Shown here piece after piece: positions 5,975 to 38,502 of a stretch of DNA of 41,647 nucleotides (the first letter of the stretch is position 1; every line of letters begins with the position of its first letter). Position numbers and translations under genes: made by a program. The notes beneath the pieces are model-generated. The model did not search any database. It saw only the letters and a list, made by a program, of their open reading frames with translations, and was not told the origin of the DNA. The DNA is from Puniceicoccus vermicola. Lineage in GTDB: Bacteria > Verrucomicrobiota > Verrucomicrobiia > Opitutales > Puniceicoccaceae. The stretch spans positions 1 through 41,647 of the forward strand of contig NZ_JACHVA010000038.1 of assembly GCF_014230055.1 (NCBI RefSeq). The letters are read 5' to 3'.

Positions 5975-6235
5975 CTGCAAACCGCTCTTTCGCTCTACAG
6001 CTTGCAGAATTCTCCCAATGGAGGGGTTCCCGATCGACTTCGGTCAGTCGGCACGATGAGGCAGAGATACCTCTCCGGAAAATGGCATCAAGCGCTATCC
6101 TCACAAGGAGCGCACGACTCCAATCATCGAAGAATCCCTCTCATATACCGAATTCAGGAAGTCTTAACCCGAAAACCGAACAATCCTAAATTTCCAACTA
6201 CGGTCTACCGTAGACGCCCCGATCCTCTGCTCTCC
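5975..6235. other. Intergenic stretch, nothing recognised
   Basis: Between the autotransporter terminator and the GTG start of the next gene I see no convincing gene, RNA or repeat. The upstream frame stays open from 6002, but its residues are basic and unlike a signal peptide or domain, so I read it as non-coding. Confidence 0.4.
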
Positions 6236-36102: not shown

Positions 36103-36835
36103 ATCACCCTCTATTCCTTCGATTCGCACGGAGGGCCTAACTCGGGACTTTGGAAAACGGCGCGTCGTCAATGACGTGGCCCTATCCGTCAATGCCGGAG
36201 AAATTGTCGGCCTCCTCGGACCCAATGGGGCGGGCAAGACCACGACCTTCTACATGATTGTCGGACTTATTGAGCCCACCCGGGGAAGAATCCACCTGCG
36301 CGAGCAAAACGTCACTAAGCTCCCCATGTATCGCCGGGCCCGCCAAGGCATAGGATATCTTCCCCAGGAAGCATCGGTTTTCCGAAAGATGACGGTGCGC
36401 AACAACATCATCTCGGTGCTCGAGACTCTCAAGATCCCCAGAAAGGAACGGGAAGAGTCAGCCGACGAGAAGTTGGCCCAGTTCGGTCTGGAAAAGATCG
36501 CCCACCAGAAAGCCTACACTCTCAGCGGTGGAGAACGCCGGCGCGTGGAGATCGCTCGGGCTCTCGCCACCCGCCCCGACTTTCTGCTCATGGACGAGCC
36601 CTTCAGCGGCGTGGACCCGATCAGCGTCGACGACGTGCAATCCATCATCCGCGACCTCAAGAAGATCGGTATTGGAATCCTCATTACCGACCACAACGTC
36701 CGCGAGACTCTCGAAATCACGGATCGATCCTACCTTCTCTACGAAGGTAAGGTTCTCTGCGAAGGAGACCGCGACACTCTCCTGAACGATCCGTCCGCCC
36801 GCAAATTTTATCTCGGCGAAGGCTTTAAGGCCTGA
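36095..36835 (+). CDS. lptB: LPS export ABC transporter ATP-binding protein LptB
   Basis: The 246-residue cytoplasmic ATPase powers LPS extraction with LptF and LptG. The ATG at 36095 is chosen. A GTG five codons upstream is possible. Walker A is GPNGAGKTTTFYMI, the Q-loop GIGYLPQEASVF, the signature LSGGERRRVEIARAL, Walker B FLLMDEPFSGVDPISV, and the switch His is in LITDHNVRETL. These are diagnostic for LptB among ABC ATPases. The lptF and lptG permease genes are not in the window. The gene overlaps the end of lptA, and downstream lies the repeat-rich gap before hprK. Confidence 0.95.
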   Translation: MNESPSIPSIRTEGLTRDFGKRRVVNDVALSVNAGEIVGLLGPNGAGKTTTFYMIVGLIEPTRGRIHLREQNVTKLPMYRRARQGIGYLPQEASVFRKMTVRNNIISVLETLKIPRKEREESADEKLAQFGLEKIAHQKAYTLSGGERRRVEIARALATRPDFLLMDEPFSGVDPISVDDVQSIIRDLKKIGIGILITDHNVRETLEITDRSYLLYEGKVLCEGDRDTLLNDPSARKFYLGEGFKA

Positions 36836-36919: not shown

Positions 36920-37197
36920 CTAATACCACTTCTGAAAAATTCTGACGTTATTGGTGCTGATCCGAATGGAGGCAGCGCAAGGCTCCGCCGGGTAAGGCGT
37001 ATCGAGATACGTTTCCCCGGCGGGAACGCCGCGATCCTCCATTCGGGCGCATCCCCTAAGAGGACGGGCGGTTCTTCCCCCTGAGCCGCGTTGCCCCGTG
37101 CGGCACGGGTCACAGACCCGCCTCCGCACAGGCCGCCTTGCTCAGGGAGAAGAACCATCCCGCCAATAATGCCAGAATTTTTTAGAAGTGGTATAAG
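36920..37197. mobile_element. MITE-like element with 35-bp terminal inverted repeats
   Basis: The ends 36920-36954 and 37163-37197 are inverted copies with about 4 mismatches in 35 bp, sharing the core ATACCACTTCT and TTATTGG. Inside are nested palindromes. CCGAATGGAGG (36962-36972) pairs with 37036-37046, enclosing CCGCCGGG (36985-36992) with 37016-37023, and CGTATC with GATACG around a GA loop (36998-37011). In the second half 37066-37085 pairs with 37141-37161, and CCCGTG/CACGGG (37095-37109) forms a further hairpin. There is no coding capacity, and no target duplication was identified by eye. Confidence 0.7.
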
Positions 37198-37213: not shown

Positions 37214-37246
37214 GCGGGAGAGAGCTGGAAGCTCTCACTACTTTTG
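37214..37246 (+). repeat. Hairpin repeat, copy 1
   Basis: A GAGAGC stem, TGGAA loop and GCTCTC stem are followed by ACTACTTTTG. The 33 bp are identical to 37452-37484. Confidence 0.85.
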
Positions 37247-37355: not shown

Positions 37356-37382
37356 CACAGGCTGGAAGCCTGTGCTACTTTG
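37356..37382 (+). repeat. Hairpin repeat, diverged copy 2
   Basis: Stem CACAGGC/GCCTGTG with the same TGGAA loop and the same CTACTTTG tail as copies 1 and 3. The stem sequence differs but pairing is kept. Confidence 0.8.
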
Positions 37383-37451: not shown

Positions 37452-37484
37452 GCGGGAGAGAGCTGGAAGCTCTCACTACTTTTG
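37452..37484 (+). repeat. Hairpin repeat, copy 3
   Basis: Identical over 33 bp to 37214-37246, 238 bp downstream. It ends 58 bp before the hprK start. Confidence 0.85.
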
Positions 37485-37542: not shown

Positions 37543-38502
37543 ATGAAACCCACGGAGAAAATCATTGAAAGCATCTCGGTTCGCGAATTCTACGAGGCTT
37601 GTCGCGACCCCTTACAACTGGAACTGATCTGCGGGGAAGAAAGCCTCGACCGCATCATTCGAGAGAAAAGCCTCAACCGCCCGGCTCTCGCCCTCACGGG
37701 CTACTTCCGCTTCTTTGCCAACCGCCGCATCCAGCTCTTTGGCGCGGGAGAAATGGGTCACATCCGCGACAGTGATCCGGAGGTCATCGAGAAAGTTCTC
37801 TGCCAGATCGCGAAGAAGAACATCCCCTGCATCCTCATCAGCCGCAATCTCGCCCCGACCCCGGTTCTCCTCAAGGTCGCCAAGCGTTTCAAAATCCCCC
37901 TTTTCCGCTCGACCCTGAAGTCAAAGACTCTCACCACCGAGGCCACCCTCATCCTGGAAGAACGGTTTGCCCCGCGAAAGACCATTCACGGTACTCTGAT
38001 GGACATCCGCGGCATCGGGACCCTCCTCCGCGGGGAAAGCGGCATTGGGAAGAGTGAGTGCGCTCTCGCCCTCATTGAGCGAGGATTCAGCCTCGTCGCC
38101 GACGATCTCACCCACCTCCGCCTCCTCCGCGACCATGAAGTCGTGGGGAACAGCTCGGAATTGAGCCGGGGCTACATGGAGTGCCGGGGAATCGGCATCA
38201 TTGACGTCGCAAAACTCTTCGGGGTCCACTCAGTGCGCGTCGAGAAGCGCCTCGATCTGGTCATCACTTTTGTCACCTGGAGCCCAGACATCGACGAAGA
38301 CCGCACCGGACTCGACCAGGACCACATGGAAATCTTCGGGCAAAAGATCCCGCATAGTACGATCCCCATCCGCCCGGGGCGCGATATGGCCCGGCTCGTC
38401 GAAGTGGCCGCCATGGTGCAGGCTCTACGACTGCTCGGTCACGATGCGGCCAAAGAATTCAACGAGAGACTGATTCGGAAAATGTCGGGGCAAATCAGTT
38501 GA
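37543..38502 (+). CDS. hprK: HPr kinase/phosphorylase
   Basis: The 319-residue bifunctional enzyme phosphorylates and dephosphorylates the serine of HPr-like proteins. The ATG at 37543 gives [20 protein letters not shown]. The open frame upstream runs into the repeat region. The N-terminal domain (1-130) has the MurF-like fold. The catalytic domain has P-loop GESGIGKS (164-171) preceded by the conserved [13 protein letters not shown]. The HPrK signature region is [19 protein letters not shown], and [14 protein letters not shown] is near the C-terminus. In Gram-negatives this enzyme usually sits in the lpt-rpoN-ptsN region. No HPr gene is present in the window. Confidence 0.93.

Follow-up and report, generated by a model that had tools for sequence, protein, structure and literature searches.

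A putative IS630-type MITE between lptB and hprK of Puniceicoccus vermicola with a predicted hairpin core found in elements with other ends

The gap between lptB and hprK in Puniceicoccus vermicola raises the question of what a long and highly palindromic element is, and why its interior should be folded. The window analyzed here is a stretch of 41,647 nucleotides (contig NZ_JACHVA010000038.1, genome G000), in which lptB ends at 36835 and hprK begins at an ATG at 37543 that aligns with the hprK starts of two genomes of the same genus (G001 and G002). The element lies within this 707-bp gap, and four open reading frames of 69-140 aa from a mechanical ORF listing overlap it. A sequence-only reading had placed a structured element at 36920-37197 and suggested either a MITE or a structured RNA. 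The lptB-hprK gap is 84 bp in G001, 87 bp in G002, and 55 bp in G003, a genome of the same family; the element was absent from the gap in all three, and the flanks were too diverged to define an exact empty site.

The inverted ends described in that reading were confirmed, with arms at 36920-36954 and 37163-37197 that are inverted over 35 nt at 89% identity with 4 mismatches. The same span did not hold as the mobile unit, however, since alignment of 26 copies set the edges of a 270-bp element at 36924..37193. This element ends TACC...GGTA and has TAA on either side (36921..36923 on the left and 37194..37196 on the right), the two 3-bp copies of a target duplication; neither they nor the element as a whole are assigned to a strand. 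The outermost bases of the 35-nt arms are the duplicated target and its neighbor rather than part of the element, and they look inverted because the target DNA is near-palindromic. Arm self-alignment defined the terminal inverted repeats as TACCACTTCTGAAAAATTCTGACGTTATTGG at 36924..36954 on the + strand and its counterpart at 37163..37193 on the - strand. Ends similar to the left repeat were found at L030, a solitary end, and at L079 and L085, which are elements of G001.

The stretch folded far better than shuffled sequences on both strands with RNA parameters (z = -11.7 for + and -12.3 for -) and likewise with DNA parameters (z = -12.3), with 0 of 200 shuffles as good in each case. The nested hairpin systems proposed earlier were recovered: the predicted fold has a closing stem, a pair of long hairpins, and a small hairpin in the middle. 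The long hairpins, A (36963..37044, + strand) and B (37073..37155, - strand), are convergent and mutually alike, each running GCAAGGC, stem, tip, stem, AACGC, and each broken by the identical unpaired strands GCAAGGC and AACGC. Both are of the type recognized by the covariance model R1 described below (81.5 bits, E 1.4e-17 for A; 74.2 bits, E 1.2e-15 for B), which was built partly from the window copy and contains both of these hairpins. On the + strand, hairpin A has its GCAAGGC strand at 36977..36983, its tip GTATCGAGATAC at 36999..37010, where the GTATC-GA-GATAC of the earlier reading is indeed present, and its AACGC strand at 37025..37029. The corresponding parts of hairpin B lie on the - strand, AACGC at 37088..37092 (GCGTT on +) and GCAAGGC at 37135..37141 (GCCTTGC on +). 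The small middle hairpin region (GCATCC...GGAC, 37049..37065) is not assigned to a strand.

A single copy kept with its flanks in relatives would have spoken against mobility, which is not what was observed, and the sequence-only reading had called for a genome-wide search for copies. This search, of the whole genome of P. vermicola (5.2 Mb, 143 contigs), gave 31 matches. Set aside were two self-matching arms, a solitary end, one short derivative, and one match to the second half of a copy, which left 26 hairpin-bearing two-ended copies including that of the window (L001-L026). Lengths were 267-270 bp in 23 of these and 254, 225, and 191 bp in the other three. Two more short two-ended copies, L074 (169 bp) and L075 (106 bp), are both flanked TTA/TTA, and together L023, L024, L026, L074, and L075 are shortened derivatives whose lengths all differ (254, 225, 191, 169, and 106 bp). 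The window copy belongs to a diverged subfamily, with 71-75% identity to the other 25 over matched stretches. Convergent hairpins were present in 23 of the 24 two-hairpin copies of this genome; the exception, L025 (G000:C118:58048-58316), is full length with hairpin B inverted in place, which suggests recombination between hairpin arms.

Identical 3-bp TWA triplets stood outside TACC...GGTA in 21 of the 26 copies, and the left triplet was TTA or TAA in 21 of 26. Permutation of the right flanks gave a mean of 9.9 identical triplets and a maximum of 18 in 20,000 permutations. A 2-bp TA duplication was considered for this class and rejected because the base after GGTA follows the left flank (TTA/TTA or TAA/TAA). 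No ORF of at least 100 aa spanned the joined flanks at 18 of the 26 sites. The other 8 include three apparent gene interruptions (L016, L017, and L026) in frames read by eye; that of L017 (G000:C124:5206-5474) resembles, also by eye, a Gfo/Idh-type oxidoreductase. Plasmid sequences gave no match to the element. The family is short, multicopy, and without a transposase gene, and it has terminal inverted repeats and target duplications; on these sequence features the element is a non-autonomous transposon (MITE), one of the two possibilities raised at the outset. The empty gap in three relatives and the matching transposase subgroup described next are further support.

Candidate movers were sought from the ends of the element. 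With up to three mismatches allowed, 63 sites were found in the genome, 52 in two-ended copies and 11 solitary. One solitary site in the window, at 6146-6167, is a weak MITE end with 3 mismatches and may be chance. Two of the 11 were the ends of an IS630-family element (L073), of which contig C100 has a complete copy and C75 a partial one, with ends TACCTCATAATAAAAGGTTTGATAATTAATA and TACCTAATCTAAAAAGGTTTGATATTTAATA and a transposase, P0001, that has a DDE_3 match and scores 201.5 bits for NF033545 against a cut-off of 100. This element has about 50 bp from its left end to the gene and is without the hairpins of the MITE. The main-family MITE end was identical to the IS ends TACCTAATCTAAAAAGGTTTGATATTTAATA and TACCTCATAATAAAAGGTTTGATAATTAATA at 22/31 and 19/31 positions, respectively (0 and 21 of 200,000 shuffles as good), and at 18/27 and 15/27 without the shared TACC (p 0.0001 and 0.008). 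For the end of the window copy, the corresponding values were 17/31 and 15/31, and 13/27 and 11/27 without TACC (p 0.035 and 0.16), the latter hardly above chance. The ends of L073 are related to those of the MITE, then, but not identical, and the resemblance is weak for the window copy's own end. Solitary TACCGAATTTAG ends were also considered as IS ends and rejected: only the IS630 ends of C75 and C100 adjoin a transposase, the others inspected look like fragments, and no transposase with exact MITE ends was found behind the solitary TACCGAATTTAG ends of this genome.

We also examined 24 IS630-like loci (4 + 17 + 3) for ends and duplication. TACC was present on at least one end in 7 of the 24, and 5 of those 7 had identical TNA triplets: TGA in G006 and G398, TAA in L240 of G116 and in an Azospirillum plasmid copy, and TTA in ISAcma28. 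The remaining two, L093 and L254, are consistent with TTA/TTA if a single base of the end has been changed or lost. TACTG ends occurred in three, ISAva6 with TGA/TGA and L238 and L245 without TNA, which would fit TA; the other 14 had different ends or none that were recognized. TACC-ended IS630 elements with a 3-bp TNA were observed at L235, L236, L240, L256, and L257, in this phylum, a cyanobacterium, and an alphaproteobacterium. ISAcma28 (TACC ends, TTA/TTA) and ISAva6 (TACTG ends, TGA/TGA) are similar to the MITE in outermost bases and TNA triplet; unlike the MITE, both are autonomous, with their own transposase gene and approximately 30% protein identity to P0001. ISY100, an IS630 element studied in vitro, duplicates TA (PMC2170065), whereas the TACC-ended IS630 elements duplicate TNA. 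TACC-ended MITEs and TACC-ended IS630 elements have ends and duplication in common, as would be looked for in an IS630-derived element, although L238 and L245 show that end and duplication do not always go together. These data argue well for cut-and-paste movement of the MITE in trans, probably by a TACC-type, TNA-duplicating IS630 (DDE_3) transposase.

The ends are one part of the element; the folded interior proved to have a distribution of its own. Fifteen hairpins from G000, G001, G034, and G051 were aligned (A1), and R1 was built from this alignment. Throughout A1, AGGC and AACGC do not vary, and double changes occur at 18 of 22 pairs. In the sample of the order, R1 matched 23 of 132 genomes (15 of 68 genera; E <= 1e-3), the four model genomes among them. 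In the sample of the phylum, it matched 26 of 387 genomes (20 of 197 genera; E <= 1e-4), three of them model genomes, and 15 of the 26 lie outside the order. These runs used strict filters with at most 35 (order) or 11 (phylum) candidates scored per genome, and copy numbers are lower bounds in which weak families may be missed. The distribution was patchy; under the strict filters, G002, of the same genus as P. vermicola, had no R1 match. When 150 of 2,562 candidates were scored in the genome of P. vermicola, all 60 of the listed matches (E up to 1; 52 at E < 1e-3) fell within the element family or its remnants, which supports the specificity of R1.

A second alignment (A2) held 66 hairpins, every match obtained at 47 selected loci, with one match, in L079, on the wrong strand. 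Because it was fitted to the model, A2 leans towards structure; in it, 91.7% of cells were paired compared to 57.5% when shuffled, and the covariation score was 0.822 compared to 0.201 when shuffled and 0.106-0.143 with partners slid. The number of A2 pairs changed on both sides gave no separation (20 vs 18.8; 79 of 500 shuffles). The covariation is that of a structured RNA, and it is equally expected of a conserved DNA hairpin. For the earlier suggestion of a structured RNA, strong conservation of pairing is borne out, but the layout is strand-symmetric, and the results would suit an RNA or a DNA structure alike.

Since the matches themselves had been selected with the motif, we turned to the neighboring hairpin, which is not the selected match. 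An exact [AG]AGGC...AACGC lay beside the match at 37 of 124 loci, with 1.5% expected by chance per flank. The arrangement was convergent at 25 of the 37 and not at 3, and all of the 9 with an unreadable match direction were placed as in the convergent case. Nine genomes outside the model set contributed 18 of the 25 convergent neighbors. The other 87 loci, taken together, include single-hairpin elements, contig ends, and inexact motifs.

Most of the inspected R1 matches fell within short palindromic elements, whose ends are of several kinds. Of one set of 80 loci, 16 had an arm-search score under 10, several of these 16 being truncated where a contig stops, and a further locus, L176, returned a spurious span; in another set, short arms were all that a few distant matches yielded. 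Sixteen elements with two hairpins and clear ends were hand-picked for alignment, one of which (L156) aligns poorly, and the following figures describe that choice. Six end classes were present: TACC, flanked by the triplet TTA or TAA (6/6); GAGGGC, flanked by TAA (2/2); GAGACT, by TGA (1); GAGCA, by TA (3/3); GAACC, by TAA in one and TA in two; and GTGTAG, by TA (1). Mean identity between classes was 0.99 for GCAAGGC and 0.91 for AACGCCGC (the AACGC strand of hairpin A), compared to 0.37-0.40 for the ends. The middle hairpin block had 0.58, and the inner stem of hairpin A, at 0.33 against approximately 0.25 expected, was near background. The G051 family adds further ends, for example GGGTGTGTCTGGG and GGCGCTNTCTTCAAA, mostly in single-hairpin elements of about 165-205 bp. 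The same core is present, between different ends, in distant genera of this phylum.

Two classes can occur in one genome (TACC and GAGCA in G001, GAGGGC and GAACC in G063, GGGTGTGTC and GGCGCT in G101). Nevertheless, end swapping within one genome was unsupported: cores grouped by end class and not by host genome, and the core of L218 (G001, GAGCA) had an identity of 0.62 to those of G103 and G116 compared to 0.45-0.53 to those of the TACC elements of G001. Ends and core seem to have been inherited together in old element lineages moving between hosts, and within these lineages the ends have apparently diverged much further than the loop. Part of the conservation of the core is descent, because cores group with their ends. 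Movers of the other classes were sought with a DDE_3 profile in 17 genomes, of which 7 had matches, at 17 loci. No IS bounded by GAGCA, GAGGGC, GAACC, or GGGTGTGTC ends was recognized at those loci; single or MITE-like ends of these kinds were near three of them, and G048 has an IS630 element with GTGTGGTG ends that resemble the ends of elements in G466 and G242. In G103 (L144-L149), one MITE end matched 75 times on the forward strand and 74 times on the reverse; the matches listed are mostly identical, and in many contigs such an end lies approximately 50 bp from the start. This looks like a recent burst, and it is a likely cause of assembly breaks.

These results are compatible with more than one scenario. 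The element could be an ordinary IS630 MITE with a functionless interior, in which template switching keeps the stems and similarity between genera reflects recent transfer. The clustering of cores with end class across genera, by which the elements seem to move between hosts, fits this account, and the internal deletions and the one hairpin inversion are DNA processing at palindromes. However, template switching, like any neutral process that keeps complementarity, should close the AAGGC/AACGC mismatch, and that mismatch is instead the best-conserved part; nor would recent transfer leave the inner stem of hairpin A near background while the loop stays. We consider a functionless interior unlikely and infer that selection on fold and loop maintains the core, rather than chance or IS decay. 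The sequence-only reading that the stretch does not match a simple IS remnant also stands: the IS630 element has room for only about 50 bp before its gene on the left and lacks such hairpins, and the interior is retained in distant genera. The hairpins might also be REP-like units moved by a RAYT (HUH) transposase, with the ends secondary. An inverted hairpin pair whose unpaired tag is polar brings to mind REP dimers, which are also named REPINs, and single-hairpin elements do exist. Opitutus terrae is rich in GTAG REPs (PMC3733652). Yet the target duplications are at the terminal repeats and not at the hairpins, and none of the 60 matches listed in P. vermicola is a separate solo hairpin outside the terminal-repeat family and its remnants. 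No GTAG or CGTC tag was found at the hairpin foot or in the invariant columns, where AGGC and AACGC are within the stem. The element is not a REP, the tag being absent, and a RAYT origin of the hairpins is very improbable.

If the core is under selection, it could act as RNA or as DNA. Read-through transcripts may form a four-way junction, with GCAAGGC/AACGC loops that either bind a protein or stabilize or terminate the message, and convergence would let it function in either orientation. Strong covariation with fixed loop strands is as in structured RNA, and the 18 copies of P. vermicola without an ORF of at least 100 aa lie in 7 convergent, 11 tandem, and 0 divergent gene settings. In single-hairpin elements, the strand of the hairpin was that of the neighboring ORF in 52 of 86 comparisons (34 against) from 51 loci, which leans the way an RNA would, in a count that rests on crude ORF calls and comparisons that are not independent. 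In contrast, Rfam 15 gave no match at gathering thresholds in 18 loci, with a best E of 0.61 in the window, at chance level and well short of the gathering score, and the motif is on opposite strands in hairpins A and B, so that any one transcript has only one AAGGC-type hairpin. We regard a functional RNA as rather unlikely and favor a role in mobility at the DNA level. A reading on which the core is an ancient strand-symmetric nucleic-acid device, whether single-stranded DNA, cruciform, or RNA, recognized by a protein through the GCAAGGC/AACGC loop, is a tentative one. On that reading, the loop would have remained constant in many mobile elements throughout the phylum as their ends changed to suit different transposases.

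Taken together, these considerations lead us to think it probable, with some reserve, that the element is a MITE of IS630 type, belonging to an old superfamily whose folded core is conserved and strand-symmetric, the DNA-level role included. We propose, less firmly than the identification as a MITE, that the core acts when the element is in single-stranded form or has been extruded into a cruciform. Folding of the core would bring the two element ends close together, and the convergent pair, which reads alike on both strands, would present the same loop on either. The loop could then be recognized by a putative binding protein, probably encoded by the host, and elements with this core would amplify better. 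The DNA-level role is suggested by the symmetry, and also by the five deletion derivatives, all of which are different, compared to the other 23 two-ended copies, which are full length.

Several known repeats share features with this element. In its logic it is nearest to RUP and the mover IS630-Spn1, and in its shape to the CIR repeats (PMC2229807). The RUP of Streptococcus pneumoniae, which IS630-Spn1 mobilizes, measures 107 bp and has a TA target, and it is likewise small and non-coding, with terminal repeats that resemble those of an IS630 element of the same genome and with TA-containing targets (PMC2229807). The present element differs from RUP in its length of about 270 bp, its 3-bp TWA duplication, its two convergent fixed-loop hairpins, and a core that also occurs between other ends. 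The CIR repeats found in Caulobacter and Brucella also have two hairpin arms and a linker and are conserved between genera; according to the same review, they have no end-pairing stem and expose a GANTC motif at a loop (PMC2229807), whereas a terminal-repeat stem is present here and the conserved piece is an internal loop. Dimers of GTAG or CGTC REPs resemble it as inverted hairpin pairs with a conserved unpaired tag, but the REPs are 20-40 bp long with the tag at one end (PMC3733652); here the hairpins measure about 80 nt, carry the tag as an internal loop, and lie within terminal-repeat elements that have target duplications. The window also has three small hairpins with a ACTACTTT or GCTACTTT tail, at 37214-37244, 37357-37381, and 37454-37484, which on the - strand start GTAG and continue into a palindrome whose loop is CTTCCAG. 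These three are like the GTAG-type REPs reported to be abundant in Opitutus terrae (PMC3733652).

In the open-access literature, we recognized no description of this hairpin and found no account of a MITE whose core is better conserved than its ends throughout a phylum. A smaller point is that the 3-base TNA duplication is common to TACC-ended IS630 elements and to these MITEs. MITEs are normally recognized by their ends, with the interior treated as filler. Here the pattern is reversed, in that the loop strands are nearly invariant over six end classes and distant genera and the ends are not. The covariance model provides a means to find and classify such elements in this phylum, the conserved loop points to a putative binding partner, and the function of a MITE interior becomes a testable question.
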